IMG/VR virus record: IMGVR_UViG_3300044618_001043
Location: 1-41,745 of that record
DNA: 41,745 bases
Source: a virus
Strand: one strand, 5' to 3'
Position 1 is the first letter of the stretch. Each line of letters opens with the position of its first letter. Position numbers and translations under genes: made by a program. This document shows positions 23,910-41,745 of this stretch, piece by piece. The notes below the pieces were generated by a model, which was not told the DNA's origin, did not search any database, and saw only the letters and a list, made by a program, of their open reading frames with translations.

Positions 23910-26900
23910 TTAGAAAGCCCTCCGATAACCGAACAATATCTCTTTCTGGCGCAAAGTAGGATCCACCGCCACATCTAATCCCAACGTCCCGCCAATATTT
24001 GACTCTGGGAACAGCCTTTCGAGTGGAACCTGCAGGCCTCCCGTGATTTGAGTGCCGGCATTCCCCATCCCAGTAGTGCCGCGCCGTCCGCTCATGATGC
24101 TGCCGCCAATGTTTGCCGTGGTGCCCTCTTCATCAAGCGGAATATTCAAATTGCCGCCGTAAGAATACACGCCCTGCGGCTTTGCGCCAGTAAAGCTTGG
24201 CGTCATGGTTTGATAGCCGCCAAAGATGCTGGCAGGCCCATAACTGGCAGACACCCGAGGGCCGTAGCCAGTCATCCCATAATCGCCGGCATTTTCCATG
24301 GCCATCAAGCCTGCGCCAATGCCAATCTTGCGCTCTTGGTCAAGAATGGCATTGATGCCCGTGCTCAGGCCCCTCATGCCCGCACGCTGCCCGTAACGGT
24401 CATCTTCGATTGGGATTTCAAAATAATTGGTTGAAGACGTCACGTTTTCATTGCGCGGGTAGCGCATGTAATTCTTTGGCAAATCCTGCGCGCCAACCGC
24501 CATCGGGGTCTGCACATCAAGGCCCCTCATCAGCATGCGCGCACGCTGCGTCACATCCACAGGGGAAATTTCCCGCATAAATTCGCTGGCGATCGTATCA
24601 ACTTCCCTGGGATCATAGGGGCGCGCCATGCCCTCATCGCCCACCTCGCCGCCCTCGGCATAGCGGTGGTGCAATTCCTCCAGAGACTTTTTGCCTTCCA
24701 CCATGCCGCCGTGCTTCATAAGCCTCGGGGCATTGGTAGCCAAGTTACCCCAGTTGCGGGCAAGATATTGGTCAAGCGTCTGGTTATTGGCTGCAGCATC
24801 TTGCTGGATCTGGGCCCAATTCCAAGGTGCATATGGCGGCGCGCCAGTCAGCTGCTCACTATATCTCTGGTTGAGGGCAGACAAACTTTGATCAATGTTT
24901 TGGCCGGCATTGTCATCCGCCGCAGCGCCAGAGCCAGCATTGCTACTGCCCATGCCGCCAACGCTGGAGCCAACAGTGCTGCTCGTGCCGGCAACGCTAG
25001 AGCCAACATTGCCAGTATTCGTGGTGCTGCCAAACTCAGGCGAGCCAAAAGACATTACACTGGGAGAAACGCCCAAGGCTTGGCTCACCTGCGACCCAAT
25101 CATGCCGCCAAGCATCCCAAGGCCAGGAACGCCCGTGGCAAGCCCAGCAATGCCCAGGCCAAGCCCCACCGGGTCAATTGATACTGCCGGCGTCTGCTGG
25201 CCAATCTCGTTAACATTCACGCCGACTGTGACGCCAGGAGGCGAAAAGGCAGATTGCGCGGCGTAACCAAGAGCTGGCCCCAGCCCAATAGTCCCTCGGC
25301 CTAATGCGCCAAAAGCTTCCCCAATACCGGGCGCCGCACTGAAGCCGGTGGGCGCAACACCGCCAGTATCGGCAATACCAAAACCAAGGCCCGCTTGCTG
25401 CGCAGCCACTGCCGTGTTCATGTTGGCCGCAGCTTGGGTTGCCTCAGGGTCTTGCATAGACATGCTTGGAGCCATGCCGCTTATGCCAGCGATGCCACTT
25501 TCACTGGCGCCCACATCACTCGCGCTTGGGCCCGTTTCTCCGGTAGACCCAGCCCCAGCGCCAGTAGGACCAGCGCCCTGGCCTTGATTACCGCCTACGG
25601 CATCTTGCGTGGCAGCCTCAGACATTGCGGCATCCTGGCCGGTGGCGCCTTCATTGCCTTCGCCAGTGCCGTTGCCGCCCTCACTGCCATTACTGCCGTC
25701 GCCGCCGTTCCCATCGCCGCCATTGCCGCCATTCCCGTCATCAAATGCCGGCACGCCATAGCGCGTCATGCGGCCGGATCCGCCGCGCGCCTTCAGCAAC
25801 GCAGCCTCCTCCGGCGTGATGTAGGCCAGCTCATGGCCCTGGCCCCGAATGGTGGCCTCCTTGGGCGCACGCACAGTGCCGCCATCCGCATACTTGGCGT
25901 CAAGCGCAGCAAGGCCGCCCTCGGCGTAGCGGCGATCAATGTCAATCAGGTCATCGCCAAACATGACGATGTTACGGGTGCCTTGGCCAATATCGCGTGA
26001 ACCCGCATCAAAATAACGCAACCCAGGAATGCCAGCCTCACGCAGTTTTTGCGTTGCCGTAACCGGATCAACTTCGCTCATCATTCTGATAAGGCTTCCG
26101 CCGCCGGTATTCATTAAAGCATCAAGAGAAACTTCCGGGTTTCCTGTTTGCCGCGCAAAATCATTCGCGCGCCAAACGTCGGCCGCCCCTTGCCTCACAT
26201 ATTTTGATTGCTCGCTTAACGGAACATCCCAATCAAGTAATCTTTCTGGTTCTGTGCGAAGATTTACTTCATACAAAGAACCTTCACGCGAAAATCGCGG
26301 CGCAATGTTTTTCTCAAACCATACCAATGCTTCCGGCGTAATTTGCCCAGCTCTTGCAGCTTCCCGCACACCAAGCACATCGCCGTGTTGCATCAATGAT
26401 TCAAGAGCAGACAATTTATCATATTCTGCTTGAGCCGCCCTGGCAGGCAAACGCGCTGTATTTCTTTCTATCTGAGAATACAAATCTATTGGATTTGTGT
26501 TTCCAATTTTTTGATTGAGTGCCGTGATGTAATTTGAAAGAGTATCCCTATACCCTCTCGCAACATCTGGATGCTCGGCGAAATAAAGACCGCGCCCATA
26601 CATTTGGACACCCTCTCCCTCGCCAATCTTGCTGATGTCGAAACGATCAAAACGATACGGGCTGCCATGGTAGGCGCGAATGCTGGCCGGCCCCTCAGCA
26701 AAGCCACGCACGAAATTGATCTGGCGCTCTTCTTCTGGCGTGGGCTCAACATCACCACGCACCACAGCACTCATGCGCTGCCCGGCCTCACCAAAGGAGC
26801 GCGGCATCGGAGCAAACCCACGCCCCTCGGCAGAACGCAACTCACTCACAGGCTCGCCAGAGCCAATCGCGCGGGCAGCAAGGCGCTCAATGAAGTCAGG

Positions 26901-33341: not shown

Positions 33342-33421
33342 ATTGCCTTGAAGAGACTTCTATAGAATGTAGCGAAACCCTACAAGCCTTATGAGGGATA
33401 GTTAACCACTTTTTATGTTTT
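33342..33421 (-). promoter_or_regulatory. Regulatory cassette copy A
   Basis: An 80-bp segment that matches 35453-35532 at about 66 of 80 positions by hand alignment. In minus-strand order it holds an AAAACATAAAAAGTGGTTAA block, a poorly conserved spacer, then a TTGTAGGGTTTCGCTACA block with a TGTAG-N7-CTACA dyad and TATAGA, then a TCAAGGCAAT block. The dyad looks like an operator and the TTGTAG / TATAGA pair like promoter elements. Its first 20 bases are the last codons of the methyltransferase gene. Confidence 0.65.
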
Positions 33422-34373
33422 TAATTTGACAGAAAAGCGGCGCATCATTGATGATCCTCTCTCGCGCGATTTTTACATATTCTGGGTTTAGCTCGCAGAG
33501 AATGGCATTGCGGGCGAGGCGATCTGCGACGAGGCCGGTGGTGCCTGCGCCGCCGAATGGGTCGAGTATGGTGTCACCGGGCTTGCTGCTGGCTTTTATG
33601 CAGCGTTCAGCCAGTTCTGGGGGCATTGTGGCAAAGTGGGCGCCGCTAAATGGCTGTGTGGTAATAGTCCAGACGTTGCGGGCGTTGCGGGTGGCGCCGC
33701 CAACTGCTTTCATCGGCCCGTTTGTCTTGACCCCACCATTGGCTCTATTGCTTCCAGCCTGCGATGCAACGTCCTGCGAAAGCCGCGCGAGGCTGCTGTC
33801 TTCTGACGGCTCCGCAATTGCGTCGGCGTCGTAGAAATACTTTTCCCGCTTACTGAACAGAAATACATGCTCATAACTGGAGGTTGGCCTATCTCGCACG
33901 CTTTCTGGCATGGGGTTAGGCTTGTGCCAGACGATGGCGCTGCGGAGATACCACCCGTCAGCGCGCAGGGCGAAGGCGACCATCCAGGGGATGCCCAGGA
34001 GGTCTTTCGGTTTGTAACCATGCGCGGGCCGCCGCGCCGCTTGGTCGCCTGCGCCTTCTGCGTGAAGCCGCTTGGCGCCGACCCCGCGTTGATTGTCGTT
34101 CCGTCCCCCATGCGCGCCGCCTTGAGAGGCATAGCTATCACCAAGGTTCAACCAAAGCGTGCCATCATCGCGCAGCACGCGGCGCACTTCGCGAAAGATT
34201 ACGACCAAATTATTGACGTAAGCCTCTGGTGTTTCTTCAAGGCCAATTTGGCCTTCAACCCCATAATCACGCAAACCGTAGTAGGGCGGAGAGGTAACGC
34301 AGGCTTGGATGGATTTATCTTCCATCATTTCCATGATGTCGAGGCAACATCCAGTGATGATGTTCACTGTCAT
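33402..34373 (-). CDS. Site-specific DNA methyltransferase
   Basis: A 323-residue amino-methyltransferase of the beta arrangement. VTSPPYYGLRDYG (26-38) is the catalytic motif IV; DPFGGAGTTGL (271-281) with NAILCELNPEYVKIARERI is the AdoMet-binding motif I, placed after the catalytic motif. An intermediate region (about 85-260) includes WYLRSAIVWHKPNPMPESV and ERCIKASSKPG. The SPPY motif is compatible with N4-cytosine or N6-adenine methylation. No restriction enzyme gene is nearby, so it is likely a solitary phage enzyme guarding against host restriction or marking DNA. Confidence 0.9.
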   Translation of the reverse strand: MTVNIITGCCLDIMEMMEDKSIQACVTSPPYYGLRDYGVEGQIGLEETPEAYVNNLVVIFREVRRVLRDDGTLWLNLGDSYASQGGAHGGRNDNQRGVGAKRLHAEGAGDQAARRPAHGYKPKDLLGIPWMVAFALRADGWYLRSAIVWHKPNPMPESVRDRPTSSYEHVFLFSKREKYFYDADAIAEPSEDSSLARLSQDVASQAGSNRANGGVKTNGPMKAVGGATRNARNVWTITTQPFSGAHFATMPPELAERCIKASSKPGDTILDPFGGAGTTGLVADRLARNAILCELNPEYVKIARERIINDAPLFCQIKNIKSG

Positions 34374-36056: not shown

Positions 36057-36170
36057 CTACTTGAAAATGAGCAACAGGATTATTCCTGCCGCCAGGGTGC
36101 CAAAGAAACTGCACCCCATGATGAGTAACAGGGCGAGTGCTGCGCTGCCCCAGTCTGCGCGTTTATGCAT
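36057..36170 (-). CDS. 37-residue membrane peptide
   Basis: ATG at 36170 reads MHKRADWGSAALALLLIMGC then SFFGTLAAGIILLLIFK and stop. AAAGGA lies seven bases upstream and the frame overlaps the resolvase gene by eight bases, which supports a real gene. After a short charged start almost the whole peptide is hydrophobic, with one long or two short membrane helices. Function unknown; may affect membrane or act as a small accessory. Confidence 0.6.
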   Translation of the reverse strand: MHKRADWGSAALALLLIMGCSFFGTLAAGIILLLIFK

Positions 36171-36633
36171 TGGCGTTTCCTTTCGTCGCCACCCACCGGG
36201 CGAGCAGGGCCGCTTCAGCCCGCCCGTCATCTTTCACGCGGTCAAAATCCCGGCACCCTGGCCAGAAGCGTTGCGCCATTTGCCGGGCCCCTCCCTTATC
36301 TGCAGGGACGCCGGCTGCGCGTTTCCATACCGAGGGGCGGTGTAGGCTCACGGGCACCCTGAGGCCCGCGCAAACGCCCGCCAGGATGCCTGCGCTATAC
36401 CCAAAGTTGAACATGCTGGTCACACCCTGGCCGGGCATGGCGCCCACCTCTTCGATCGCGGCCAGCTTGATCAGGTCGTCGTGCTCTTCAAGCATGGCCA
36501 CCAGCATCTGGGGGCTGACCTTCTTCTTGCCGGCGACTTCCACAGTGGGCATGTCGGCCACCCTGATCAGGTGGCCGGTGTCTGATACCCAGGCGATTGC
36601 GCCATTCAGGCCTGGGTCAATGCCGAGGATCAT
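36163..36633 (-). CDS. RuvC-like Holliday junction resolvase
   Basis: A 156-residue nuclease of the RNase H fold. MILGIDPGLNGAIAWV carries the first Asp (D6), AAIEEVGAMPGQG the glutamates (E61/E62), and VKDDGRAEAALLARW the last acidic group (D135/D136, E140). This arrangement matches phage and bacterial RuvC-type enzymes, which cut branched DNA made during recombination and packaging. The length is close to normal. It overlaps the upstream HTH gene by four bases. Confidence 0.85.
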   Translation of the reverse strand: MILGIDPGLNGAIAWVSDTGHLIRVADMPTVEVAGKKKVSPQMLVAMLEEHDDLIKLAAIEEVGAMPGQGVTSMFNFGYSAGILAGVCAGLRVPVSLHRPSVWKRAAGVPADKGGARQMAQRFWPGCRDFDRVKDDGRAEAALLARWVATKGNANA

Positions 36634-37019: not shown

Positions 37020-37288
37020 TCCACCTTAAGTTTGGCCAGCAGCACGGTGCCGGCTGGGTTACGTCGTTGGGCTGTCGAGATTGTGCCGTCGTCCACCATG
37101 GCCTTGCAGACCCTCCACTGGTCGCGTGGCATGGTTGGCTCCCATTCGCCCCTGCCGGAGGGCCTGACGGCCACGATGATCCAATCATAGCCAATCTCCT
37201 CCACGCCTCCTGCGCGAGCCTGTGTGGCCACGGGAGGCGCCGCTGGGGGCATGGGCCCCCTTGGCTGCTGTGTGGGCTTCCTGGCCAT
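37016..37288 (-). CDS. Unknown protein with Pro/Ala-rich start
   Basis: A 90-residue protein. The first third is low complexity (PTQQPRGPMPPAAPPVATQA); then YDWIIVAVRPSGRGEWEPTM, RDQWRVCKAMVDDGTISTAQ and VLLAKLKVD. The structured part could be a small winged-helix or beta domain. It overlaps the GapR-like gene by one base. Function unknown. Confidence 0.65.
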   Translation of the reverse strand: MARKPTQQPRGPMPPAAPPVATQARAGGVEEIGYDWIIVAVRPSGRGEWEPTMPRDQWRVCKAMVDDGTISTAQRRNPAGTVLLAKLKVD

Positions 37289-37599
37289 CAGAAACGCTCC
37301 TGGGCGGCCTTGCCGAGGGGGGTGTCCGCCAGCTGGCCTAGGGCAGCCATGTAGGTTTCCAGGAGGGCCTCACGCTCTTCGCGCTTGGCTTCATCTTCCG
37401 CCCGGCGTTTAATGATCAGCCGGATGGTGGGCGCGTCGAAGCCGGCGCTCTTGGCTTCCCGGTAGATGTCTTTCACATCCTCGGCCAAGTTCTTCTTTTC
37501 GGCCTCCAGGGCTTCGATGCGCTCAATGATGCTGAGCAGGCGCTTGGCCGTTTCAGAATTGACGCTGCTGTTGTGTCCGATTTTATCGCTCATATCCAT
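37288..37599 (-). CDS. GapR-family (DUF2312) DNA-binding protein
   Basis: A 103-residue protein of the DUF2312/GapR kind: RLLSIIERIEALEAEKKNLA, EDVKDIYREAKSAGFDAPTI, RLIIKRRAEDEAKREEREAL, ending in a helix with MAALGQL. GapR is a nucleoid protein of alphaproteobacteria that clamps overtwisted DNA and works with topoisomerases at replication forks. A phage copy near a candidate origin suggests a role in its own replication or host takeover. Start from MDMSDKIGHNSS; overlaps the upstream gene. Confidence 0.85.
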   Translation of the reverse strand: MDMSDKIGHNSSVNSETAKRLLSIIERIEALEAEKKNLAEDVKDIYREAKSAGFDAPTIRLIIKRRAEDEAKREEREALLETYMAALGQLADTPLGKAAQERF

Positions 37600-38344: not shown

Positions 38345-38374
38345 CCACTATAGTGGCTCCGAAAATTCTTTCAA
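38345..38374 (-). promoter_or_regulatory. Early promoter overlapped by palindromic operator
   Basis: On the minus strand, TTGAAA (38369-38374) is 16 bases from TATAGT (38347-38352). The -10 is inside the perfect 12-bp palindrome CCACTATAGTGG (38345-38356). A second CACTATAG (TCACTATAGGG, 38381-38391) lies just upstream of the -35. Two half-related sites flanking the promoter are what a repressor would bind. Confidence 0.55.
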
Positions 38375-38399
38375 TCAAAATCACTATAGGGCTTCCGCG

Positions 38400-38467
38400 G
38401 CGACAGTAGGCGCGCCAGCGGGGCCGTCAGGCCCCCCCGCGCTAGCGGGTGGCGCGCCTACTGTTGC
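38400..38467. repeat. Branched palindrome with origin-repeat arms
   Basis: Outer arms ACAGTAGGCGCGCCA (38403-38417) and TGGCGCGCCTACTGT (38450-38464) pair perfectly over 15 bp and extend to 17 of 18. Inside are two possible hairpins, GGGGCC-gtca-GGCCCC (38420-38435) and CCCGC-gcta-GCGGG (38436-38449), making a T-shaped structure. An alternative single inner hairpin (38418-38440) is also possible. The arms begin GCGACAGTA and end TACTGTTGC, matching the repeats at 38645-38911. Nothing codes across it. Confidence 0.75.
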
Positions 38468-38529
38468 GCGGCCAGCCGACCTGTGATCGTTCATTCTTCC
38501 AATCTCCTCTACTCTGTTACCTGCAGCCG

Positions 38530-38555
38530 TTTTATTTTTTTTTTTTTTTTTTTTT
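38530..38555. other. Long T tract
   Basis: TTTT, one A and then 21 consecutive T on the plus strand, next to GC-rich palindromes. No stem precedes it, so it is not an intrinsic terminator on either strand. It could be an easily melted element of the origin; length may be affected by assembly error. Confidence 0.6.
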
Positions 38556-38591
38556 AGGAAAATCTGCTTCAGTCATTTTTCCACCCCCTTC

Positions 38592-38644: not shown

Positions 38645-38911
38645 TTTACTGTCGCAAGGTATCTCCCCGCGTTTGCGACAGTAACAGTTTTCCTACTAGG
38701 GGGATTTTACTGTCGCATCCAATGATTTCAATGACTTAGCACGCGACAGTAAATTTACTGTCGCAAACCCAATGTTATCAATGGCTTGCTTCATTTCTTC
38801 TTTCCCTATGGCAACGGACTGCCATCCTTTACATTTCTCACACAACAGGCCTTGCGACAGTAAATGCGACAGTAAACCCGCCTTAAAATTTACTGTCGCA
38901 CTTACTGTCGC
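38645..38911. repeat. Nine-copy repeat cluster, candidate replication origin
   Basis: The 11-mer TTTACTGTCGC (or its complement GCGACAGTAAA) occurs at 38645, 38675 (one change), 38706, 38743, 38754, 38854, 38866, 38889 and 38901 (one change). Copies at 38743/38754 abut as a perfect 22-bp palindrome; 38854/38866 and 38889/38901 are spaced 12 bp and form a larger inverted arrangement. Such clusters of short sites next to a primase-helicase gene are typical of origins (iterons) or of operators for a self-regulating replication protein. They lie directly after the 731-residue primase-helicase gene. A CRISPR is excluded by the inversions and irregular spacing. Confidence 0.75.
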
Positions 38912-38917
38912 ACGCAT
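38696..38917 (-). CDS. Possible 73-residue protein built over the repeats
   Basis: ATG overlaps the stop of the primase-helicase as ATGA, a coupling used by many genes here. It reads MRATVSATVNFKAGLLSHLL, then CEKCKGWQSVAIGKEEMKQA, and ends DATVKSP. All seven repeats inside the frame keep phase: one orientation encodes ATV followed by S, N or K, the other LLS followed by H, R or Q; the two repeats outside the frame do not keep the phase. This favours real coding with the repeats embedded, but the region could equally be non-coding. One C-x2-C pair is present. Confidence 0.5.
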   Translation of the reverse strand: MRATVSATVNFKAGLLSHLLSQGLLCEKCKGWQSVAIGKEEMKQAIDNIGFATVNLLSRAKSLKSLDATVKSP

Positions 38918-41112
38918 CAGAAGGGGGCCTCATCCGGGTTCACGGGCTGGCTCGGCATCTGCATCTCCAGGAATTTGGACCTATCGACGACATATGCTGG
39001 CCTGGGGTGGCGGTCACCCGGATCCGTCACTTGCTTGTCGATTTTGACCGCCCCGCCCTTGATGCACGCGTCAAGATATTGTTTCACCAGCTTCTCGTCG
39101 CAGCCGATCTGGGGGGCGATCCACCTGGGGGCATAGTCGTTGCTGTGGTGGTGGGTGCGGCACCGCTCCGGGCCGGCCTCCAGCATCAGGCGGAGAATTT
39201 CTATTTTCATCTCGCCGGTTAATGCGGCGATGCGGTCAGGCGGCGTCCAAGGCAATGCCGCGGCCACCTGCTCGCCATTGGGGATGGTCTGGCCCTGCAG
39301 CTGATACCACGCCACCTCACCCAACGGGGTGTAGTTCGCCTTGGCATTGTCTATCCTGATGAAGCTCGCCCGCTGCTCTTTCGGGATCTGCAGGGCCTCG
39401 GCTTCCTCCTCCGTCATCCGGGTGAGGGTCAGCACGATACGGGCCGCACCCTGCAGGGCCGAGGCGCCTCTCATCCGGTCCACGTCGCCGGCAATGCCGA
39501 CGCCTTTGCGATCATGGTGCAGGATGACCACGCCAATGTTGAGTTCCTTGGCCAGCTGCCGGAAGGCGGCCAGGATGCTCCGCATGGCCGTGTTGTCGTT
39601 CTCCTCGGCCGTATGCAGCTCGGCCAGGGGATCCACAATGACGTATTCCGCATCCTGTTCCTTGATCAGGTTGCGGAGGTCTTCCATGGCCGCCGTGGGC
39701 ACCACCTCGCCACTGTCCGGGTCGCGGTTGAAGAGCACGCCCACGCCCTCCGGCCCGACGCGGATCACAGACCTGATGGCCTGCCGATCTACGCCACTGG
39801 CGTAGAGGAAGGCCGCATACCGGCGGCGCTGTTCGTCACGGTCATCCTCGGTATTGTAGTTGATGCCCCGCATGGCCTTCACCGGGCTCGCCTTGCCGTA
39901 TTGGGTGCCGGCGGCGATCGAGGTGGTCAGGCCGACGACGTAGGACGACTTGCCCCCGGCGCCCTGGCCGGAGAGGAGGGTTACGCTGCCACGCAGGATG
40001 ACGCCCGGCACCAGCCAGGGGCGCGTGGGGATGTCGTCCAAGTCATCCCCGTCATCCACCCACAGACCCTGGCGGGGCTTGGGCGTGACAGCGTCAACAA
40101 AAGGGTCGCGGTCTGGCAGATCCCACTTCTGCCGGCCGCCGTCGATCATGGCCTGCAGCTCTTCATGCGTCTGGCGCAGGGTGAAGCCGGGCAGCGTGAG
40201 GGCCGGGGCGAAGAGGTGTATCTCTCTGTCGCTGAGCCCGCGGTTGAGCCAAGATGCCACCAAGCGCAGGACGCTGGCGTGCCACTGGCCGGGCTGGCGG
40301 GTGGCGGTGATCAATTCGCTGATGGGCGCATTCTGCCGCACAGGCGGCTGCCAAGCCTTCTCGGGGGCCTCCACCGGCTCCTGGGCTGCCGGCGCATCGA
40401 ATGGCGCGACATCATACTCAGGCGCCCTGGTGGCCAGGAGAGACTGGTTGGCTTCGCGCACGGTGTTGAGCAGCTCGGGCGTGTGCAGGCGCTTCATGCG
40501 CTGGTCTGCCGGCCACAGCAGCTGCGTGATCTCGGCGACGGTGCGGCCCTTCTTGACCGGCCACGCGATCGACCCAGGCAGGCGCATGAGGCGGGTGGGG
40601 TTCACCACTGCAGGGTCGCCACCGAAATGCTTGGCGAGGCCACTGTTGAGCTCCCGCACGATGGCTGGGTCCGTGATGGGCTCGTCCACCGGCCAGAAGG
40701 TCTGGCCGCGGATTTGGGGATCCCGGCCGGTGATGACCAAGTAGGCCGGCTTGAGGGCCAGGGGGTGGCTGGCAAGGCGCGAGACGCTCATGGCGTCGTC
40801 GTGATCAATGTGGGCGCCGGGCGCCTGGAGGAAGTGCTCGTCAGTGGTGCGGCCCGGCAATGCCTTCAGGGTGCAGACCCTGAAATAGACGTTGGCGCCG
40901 GCCACCTTGTTGACGTCATAGGCGAAGGTCACGAGCTCTTCGATTTCGGTCAATTCAAACCGCTTGAACCGATTGAGTTCCTTGGTTTGCGGATCCCGCC
41001 AGCCGAGTTCAATTTGGCCTTCCGTGCACAGGCTGAACCAAAAACTCAGGGCCTCGTGCATCGCGTCGGCATTTGGCCGCAGGCGATCGGGGAACGCTGA
41101 TATATCGGCCAT
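38917..41112 (-). CDS. Primase-helicase (AEP-like primase + RepA/RecA-type helicase)
   Basis: A 731-residue protein. N-terminal part (about 60-200): HIDHDDAM with D103/D105, LVITGRDPQIRGQTFWPVD and NPTRLMRLPGSIAWPVKKG, which resembles the RepB-like archaeo-eukaryotic primase signature. Then a linker rich in Pro/Ala. The RecA-like ATPase at about 360-620 has Walker A LLSGQGAGGKSS (379-390), INYNTEDDRDEQRRR, Walker B AEYVIVDPLAEL (488-499) and VVILHHDRKG (528-537). A C-terminal winged-helix-like segment (640-710) follows. It would prime and unwind at the adjacent repeat cluster. There is no separate loader or polymerase in the window. Confidence 0.85.
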   Translation of the reverse strand: MADISAFPDRLRPNADAMHEALSFWFSLCTEGQIELGWRDPQTKELNRFKRFELTEIEELVTFAYDVNKVAGANVYFRVCTLKALPGRTTDEHFLQAPGAHIDHDDAMSVSRLASHPLALKPAYLVITGRDPQIRGQTFWPVDEPITDPAIVRELNSGLAKHFGGDPAVVNPTRLMRLPGSIAWPVKKGRTVAEITQLLWPADQRMKRLHTPELLNTVREANQSLLATRAPEYDVAPFDAPAAQEPVEAPEKAWQPPVRQNAPISELITATRQPGQWHASVLRLVASWLNRGLSDREIHLFAPALTLPGFTLRQTHEELQAMIDGGRQKWDLPDRDPFVDAVTPKPRQGLWVDDGDDLDDIPTRPWLVPGVILRGSVTLLSGQGAGGKSSYVVGLTTSIAAGTQYGKASPVKAMRGINYNTEDDRDEQRRRYAAFLYASGVDRQAIRSVIRVGPEGVGVLFNRDPDSGEVVPTAAMEDLRNLIKEQDAEYVIVDPLAELHTAEENDNTAMRSILAAFRQLAKELNIGVVILHHDRKGVGIAGDVDRMRGASALQGAARIVLTLTRMTEEEAEALQIPKEQRASFIRIDNAKANYTPLGEVAWYQLQGQTIPNGEQVAAALPWTPPDRIAALTGEMKIEILRLMLEAGPERCRTHHHSNDYAPRWIAPQIGCDEKLVKQYLDACIKGGAVKIDKQVTDPGDRHPRPAYVVDRSKFLEMQMPSQPVNPDEAPF

Positions 41113-41180: not shown

Positions 41181-41745
41181 TCAGAAAGGAATCTGGTCGC
41201 CGGCAGGCGCGCCAAAGTCTTCCATGCCGCCAGATGTAGATCCGGCACCACCAAAGTCTTCTGCGCCAGAGGCGGCGTCTTCCCAATCCAAGCGGCGGCC
41301 GAGGGGTTCGCCGCGCTTGGTGATGATCACGCCATTGAGGCCGGCGCTTACGCCCCGGTTACCGGCAGCCTCGTAGCCATAGAAGTTGGCGAAGACGGTG
41401 CCATAGTAGCCCGAGACAAGGTGCTCATGCGGGCAGTTGACGATTTTGCCGCCCATCATGATTTTGGCGTCAACCGGCTTCTTGCTGGCGACGTTTACGA
41501 ACCACGCATTGCGAAACTCTTCGCCGCGCAAGAAGTTGCCGTCGGCGTCCTTTTCGTCACCATCGCGCAGCGGAGAGCGGAGGCCAGCAGGGGGCTTCGC
41601 ACCCCAGCGAGCTTCACGCGCCGCGACCATGGCGCCGCGCACCAGATCAACCATCGCCTTGTCGGACTTTGGGATGATCATGGTGACGGAATACTTGGGC
41701 TCTGCGCCGTCAGCTGCCGCGCGCGGCTCAATCAGGTGCATGTAG
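41181..41745 (-). CDS. Single-strand DNA-binding protein (DUF2815 / Enc34-like), 5' end beyond window
   Basis: At least 187 codons of one frame. The first Met in view (41741) is at MHLIEPRAAADGAEPKYSVT, which in this family follows a beta strand of the type RLSYPHLFEP; the codon before it is Tyr, so the true start is to the right of the window. Typical motifs: SVTMIIPKSDKAMVDLVRGA, FRNAWFVNVASKKPVDAKI, GYYGTVFANFYGYEAAGNRG. The C-terminus is an acidic, Gly-rich tail ending GDQIPF, as in SSB proteins that recruit partners. It precedes the primase-helicase. Confidence 0.85.
   Translation of the reverse strand, partial: YMHLIEPRAAADGAEPKYSVTMIIPKSDKAMVDLVRGAMVAAREARWGAKPPAGLRSPLRDGDEKDADGNFLRGEEFRNAWFVNVASKKPVDAKIMMGGKIVNCPHEHLVSGYYGTVFANFYGYEAAGNRGVSAGLNGVIITKRGEPLGRRLDWEDAASGAEDFGGAGSTSGGMEDFGAPAGDQIPF

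Follow-up and report, generated by a model that had tools for sequence, protein, structure and literature searches.

A candidate iteron origin behind a phage primase-helicase gene and its apparent exchange with the helicase C-terminal domain

Introduction

Replication of the IncQ plasmid RSF1010 involves three proteins (RepA/RepB'/RepC) and 20-bp iterons, which lie in oriV together with AT-rich DNA and hairpins. In lambdoid phages, a type-specific O initiator and its iterons are inherited as one module; lambda itself carries its iterons within gene O and takes its helicase from the host. SaPI Rep with its ori, and SCCmec Cch2 with its putative ori, each comprise an initiator helicase and iterons directly downstream of its gene (PMC7581432). 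ORF904 of pRN1 is a single protein comprising primase, helicase and a C-terminal winged helix, and a stem-loop origin lies downstream of its gene (PMC4234260). PrimQH and related AEP-ATPase-WH proteins, which join a primase, a RepA/DnaB-type ATPase and a winged helix in one chain, have been catalogued (PMC5862659), and the portion of that catalogue available here holds no description of their origins.

The present study concerns a cluster of 11-bp repeats behind the gene for a probable primase-helicase in a viral record of 41,745 nucleotides (IMGVR_UViG_3300044618_001043), the whole of which is referred to as the window. Like SaPI Rep and Cch2, the protein is a helicase with a C-terminal DNA-binding domain, here proposed, and the repeats lie directly behind its gene. 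Unlike them, it has a RepA/RecA-type motor (AAA_25) rather than D5/Primase_Cterm or DUF927, it carries an additional fused domain that is probably a primase, the setting is a phage genome rather than an island, and the 11-bp sites stand in both orientations. The preferred reading is that the system operates in the manner of SaPI Rep-ori while using a RepA-type motor. It departs from the known systems in joining that motor type with SaPI-like iteron placement, in tailed phages. RSF1010 offers the closest solved structure, its RepA-type hexameric helicase, but the helicase, the probable primase and the proposed iteron binder are a single protein here, and no RepC-like protein was found among the neighbors scanned. 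The likeness to pRN1 lies in the one-protein architecture, the downstream position of the candidate origin and a conserved large stem-loop behind the gene; unlike this locus, pRN1 lacks iterons and uses an SF3 helicase. As in the lambdoid O/ori module, initiator type and iterons appear to travel together, whereas in contrast to lambda the iterons lie behind the gene and the helicase is phage-encoded.

The repeat cluster

Nine copies of TTTACTGTCGC, seven exact and two with one mismatch, lie within 267 bp (38645-38911), all at the positions given in the preliminary description. The exact copies occupy 38645-38655 (+), 38706-38716 (+), 38743-38753 (-), 38754-38764 (+), 38854-38864 (-), 38866-38876 (-) and 38889-38899 (+), and the one-mismatch copies 38675-38685 (-) and 38901-38911 (+). 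The copies at 38743 and 38754 form the left and right halves of a perfect 22-bp palindrome, GCGACAGTAAATTTACTGTCGC (38743-38764). The minus-strand copies at 38854 and 38866 form a 12-bp tandem that faces a second 12-bp tandem on the plus strand (38889 and 38901), producing 24-nt arms that are 96% complementary. Both the palindrome and the facing pairs had been described beforehand and are present as stated.

The nine copies with at most one mismatch compare with 0.0018 expected by chance. Throughout the rest of the 41.7-kb record, which was searched entire and is identical to the window, a single copy with at most one mismatch was found (at 24184), and all exact copies (7/7) fall inside the cluster, so that the 11-mer is enriched here. 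A tenth iteron core, a 9-mer, lies at 38400 within a large hairpin. The coding strand at the cluster is the minus strand: the helicase stop codon occupies 38917-38919 (-), and the cluster starts five bases past it with the outermost copy, at 38901-38911, in agreement with the earlier placement right behind the primase-helicase gene.

Sequence features within and beside the cluster

Two IHF-like boxes of the form CAATGNWWTCAATGRCTTR, which has no other mismatch-free occurrence in the window, lie between the iterons. The box CAATGATTTCAATGACTTA (38720-38738, +) departs from the IHF core consensus WATCAANNNNTTR at one position, and the box CAATGTTATCAATGGCTTG (38770-38788, +) contains a perfect core, TATCAATGGCTTG, at 38776-38788. 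Perfect matches to WATCAANNNNTTR number two in the whole window, no more than chance, so only the placement and recurrence of the boxes carry weight. A 20-mer covering the 38720-38738 box was matched in 89 viral contigs, whereas its reversed control had no match. The boxes are absent from the close relative L046 and from the distant relatives tested.

An AT-rich stretch at 38530-38579 (-), with 16% GC against 57% overall, is a candidate unwinding element. On the coding strand it includes 21 consecutive A (38535-38555), and the A-run is also found in the relatives L044, L046 and L047. Beyond it lies a T-shaped hairpin (38395-38473, -) with a 21-pair main stem capped by two small hairpins. Across four sequences, 97.7% of its cells are paired (35-58% in slid controls), and six pairs show compensatory change. 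No T-run lies behind it, and it is not an obvious terminator. Comparison of the hairpin DNA with plasmids and phages gave short or weak matches only, and Rfam returned no family at the curated threshold here, its sub-threshold matches being mostly to microRNA families. An open frame of 73 codons (38696-38917, -) spans most of the cluster and is probably non-coding. A promoter-like sequence, TTGAAA-16-TAAAAT (38704-38731, -), is a consensus match only and overlaps an IHF-like box and an iteron; a second promoter-like site lies at 38347-38374. The GC skew of the window gave no origin signal.

The 20-mer CTAAGTCATTGAAATCATTG is also present in unrelated viral contigs, beside tRNA-gene-like sequence and just upstream of promoter-like sequence. 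These other settings include L115, L116, L134, L149, L155, L158 and L178, together with L118, L130, L135, L142 and L172, and the element may be a widely reused IHF-type site.

The primase-helicase protein

The gene upstream of the cluster (38917-41112, -) encodes a protein of 731 residues. Its motor, at about residues 350-600, belongs to AAA_25 (Pfam E 6.8e-32). The nearest solved relative of the motor by sequence is RSF1010 RepA (PDB 1g8y, E 2.7e-13), and the motor model matches RSF1010 RepA 1nlf with a Foldseek E of 2.7e-14. The N-terminal third is probably a primase. Compared with PrimQH-type proteins, the N-terminus of the window's protein has no significant AEP match, RepB_primase being matched below threshold over residues 157-180 only (Pfam E 0.19); in the homolog from Rhizobium phage RHph_N65, Prim-Pol (E 0.0003) and PriCT-2 domains are recognizable. 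The N-terminal domain of the close clade differs from the Prim-Pol-like one indicated by the consensus of the distant relatives L048-L085, which suggests that the primase part has also been exchanged.

The C-terminus, from about residue 621 to 731 (38920-39252, -), is predicted to be a winged helix and is the proposed iteron-binding domain. The AF2 model of residues 612-731 is a compact helix-helix-helix-strand-strand-helix domain with a mean pLDDT of 79. In a fold search, the best PDB matches are mostly winged-helix regulators, at weak E values of 0.01-0.07, and the predicted fold is a further likeness to the PrimQH type.

The same layout in relatives

Homologs were collected by a scan for relatives of the helicase and by an independent scan for the 20-base element found between the repeats; the wide helicase alignment was too diverse to serve for a genome scan. 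A word was taken as iterated if its repetition in the 330 bp following the stop codon exceeded that in each of 40 shuffles. By this measure, an iterated word lies behind the helicase stop codon in 31 of the 40 non-redundant relatives that have sequence past the gene, compared with 5 of 60 control positions behind other genes, and upstream of the helicase start in none of 34. The remaining nine of the 40 have no iterated word within 330 bp of the stop, and in some (the L136 family) it lies further on.

The word is usually lineage-specific, as in TGCGACAGT, TGCTCCAGT, TGCGGAAGT, GGCGGAGAT, TGCGGAGGT, TGCGTCGGG, TGCGCCAGT and others, and the majority match TGCG-NN-RGT when the frames are set by eye. 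Adjacent copies are commonly 10-12 bp apart, about one helical turn, with up to 12 sites per cluster. The layout is also found in cultivated phages. RHph_N65 has 12 copies whose word is either ATCTCCGCC or a variant with one mismatch, 11 of them in one orientation, and Microcystis phage Mae-Yong1326-1 has an iterated word behind its helicase in the same way. In both phages, the gene after the cluster points back at the helicase, and the cluster, lying between convergent genes, is therefore not in a promoter region there. RHph_X2_26 encodes a related helicase without an iterated word behind the gene.

Several further observations come from these scans. Searching viral contigs for the exact palindrome gave no matches. 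Some contigs from the direct-repeat scan have their copies on one strand, spaced by multiples of 15 bp, and these were set aside as probable coding repeats. The iteron clusters recognized by the 20-mer in L109, L117, L125 and L165 lie further from the helicase, apparently past an intervening gene. In L194, from a MAG, a distant helicase with 32% identity has the L044/L045 word, ACTGGAGC, downstream of 6212; its C-terminus has no clear similarity despite the common word, and convergence is possible.

Joint change of the repeat word and the C-terminal domain

The closest relatives differ in their word. The window and L047 have TGCGACAGT, L044 and L045 have TGCTCCAGT at matching offsets, and L046 has the window's word in fewer copies. 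Iteron offsets in the window and L044 agree to 1 bp, although the intervening DNA differs. The motor part and the C-terminal part of the helicase give different trees. The motor tree places L044 with the window and L047 and pairs L045 with L046 (100/100), a grouping by iteron type being rejected (AU p 6.6e-6). The C-terminal tree sorts by iteron type, with the alternative rejected (AU p 0.002). Tree support, followed site by site, switches around gene nt 1800-2000, at about residue 630. Identity between the window and L044 drops to 49-68% at about gene nt 2000, stays low through the end of the repeats, then rises again at the hairpin and beyond, reaching 73-90% in the genes past the repeats. 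From these sequences, it appears that the closest relatives have swapped the C-terminal domain and its iterons as a single cassette, in a segment that starts near residue 630 and ends past the repeats.

The association extends to the wider set. Over 30 homologs, the partial Mantel correlation of iteron distance with C-terminal distance, given motor distance, is 0.285 (reached in 0 of 2000 permutations), and the reverse test yields 0.125 (p 0.12). Because the C-terminal codons adjoin the iterons, a crossover would shift both, whatever protein binds the iterons, and part of the association could come from physical linkage. That identity recovers past the repeats argues against linkage as the sole explanation. 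When the five closest sequences are compared, the positions distinguishing the two types (HHH/HHL, LVK or LIK/LIR, the wing DRH.RP/TRRPRP and VVD/VVN) map to the predicted recognition helix and wing or close to them.

Origin function and alternative explanations

The cluster is probably (about 0.8) an iteron replication origin of the phage, bound by the helicase encoded just upstream; we infer both the binding and the origin activity from the iterated sites, their position behind the helicase, the co-segregation of word and C-terminal domain, the A-tract, the IHF-like boxes and the hairpin. The origin reading offered in the preliminary description thus gains support from comparison, in the 31 of 40 relatives and in a word that tracks the C-terminal domain. 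In the proposed mechanism, the C-terminal winged helix would bind the iterons, IHF would bend the DNA between them and the AT-rich stretch would open; the RepA-type ring would be loaded at the opened stretch, and the enzyme's own N-terminal domain would lay primers, possibly at the hairpin. Coupled change of the binding domain and its iterons would explain why relatives differ in the word.

Two alternatives concern which protein binds the sites and for what purpose. The iterons may form an origin recognized by a different phage or host protein, with the helicase recruited second, as the several small DNA-binding proteins encoded downstream would allow; lambda O, RSF1010 RepC and plasmid Rep proteins are all separate initiators. 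This is unlikely, given that iteron type tracks the C-terminal domain of the helicase and that the helicase is the neighbor common to the cluster across lineages. The GapR-like protein was considered as a possible binder and set aside; nothing found points to it. The preliminary description had also allowed for operator sites, and the array might be bound by a repressor, or by the helicase as autoregulator, to control the downstream minus-strand operon. The shared orientation of the downstream genes, the two promoter-like sites and the HTH-like and GapR-like proteins encoded nearby are in keeping with such control. That proposal is weakened by RHph_N65 and Mae-Yong1326-1, where a promoter is unexpected between convergent genes. 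The word, moreover, tracks the helicase C-terminus, the cluster remains with the helicase across lineages, and clusters of as many as 12 sites, commonly spaced 10-12 bp apart, are larger than operators usually are; an operator array is accordingly quite improbable.

The remaining two alternatives would make the repeats a by-product of a coding sequence or of RNA structure. The 73-codon frame overlaps the helicase stop (TGATG), holds the copies in one frame and is open in L047 (intact), L044 and L045 as well as in the window, so that repeated codons of a small protein might have produced the DNA repeats. Substitutions between L044 and L045, however, number 11/18/21 by codon position, with no clear third-position preference, and the L046 copies fall in different frames; the frame was set aside as the cause. 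In RHph_N65 and other lineages, repeats of other sequence stand at this place, and one word in both orientations is unexpected for a protein repeat, which leaves this explanation very improbable. Equally hard to credit is an RNA element in which copies of opposite orientation pair into hairpins on the helicase transcript and control its stability or termination. The cluster has many inverted pairs, and the T-shaped hairpin downstream is conserved with compensatory changes, but no Rfam family passes its curated threshold here and, with 11 of the 12 RHph_N65 copies in the same orientation, the role shared by these clusters cannot be for copies to pair with one another.

If the origin reading holds, the region just behind an AAA_25 primase-helicase gene provides a sequence-only route to likely origins in uncultured phages of this kind. 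Since the word changes with the DNA-binding end of the enzyme, protein-site matching can be studied from sequence; the close relatives amount to natural specificity swaps, in which the co-change of initiator and origin without mutual loss becomes directly testable. A broader proposal, put forward tentatively at slightly under even odds, is that a widespread phage initiator family (a single protein with probable primase, RepA-type helicase and winged helix) carries its origin and binding domain as a cassette, the word diversifying within TGCG-NN-RGT. On that proposal, the type-separating residues would form a readable code for specificity, and origin decoys or satellites may be what drives it. 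Escape from origin decoys is one possible reason for fast word change, because ectopic lambda origins arrest lambda replication (PMC4488673).

Phage and gene neighborhood

The phages with this system are tailed phages, probably of alphaproteobacteria; the nearest terminase match is to Roseobacter phage CRP-901 (44%). An Enc34/gp2.5-type ssDNA-binding protein is encoded just upstream of the helicase (41181-41741, -) and a RuvC-like resolvase downstream (36163-36633, -), and their flanking of the helicase fits a replication module. Shortly after the cluster lies the gene for the GapR-like DNA-binding protein (37288-37599, -, Pfam E 7.9e-27), and an N6/N4 DNA methyltransferase is encoded at 33402-34373 (-, Pfam E 3.5e-51).
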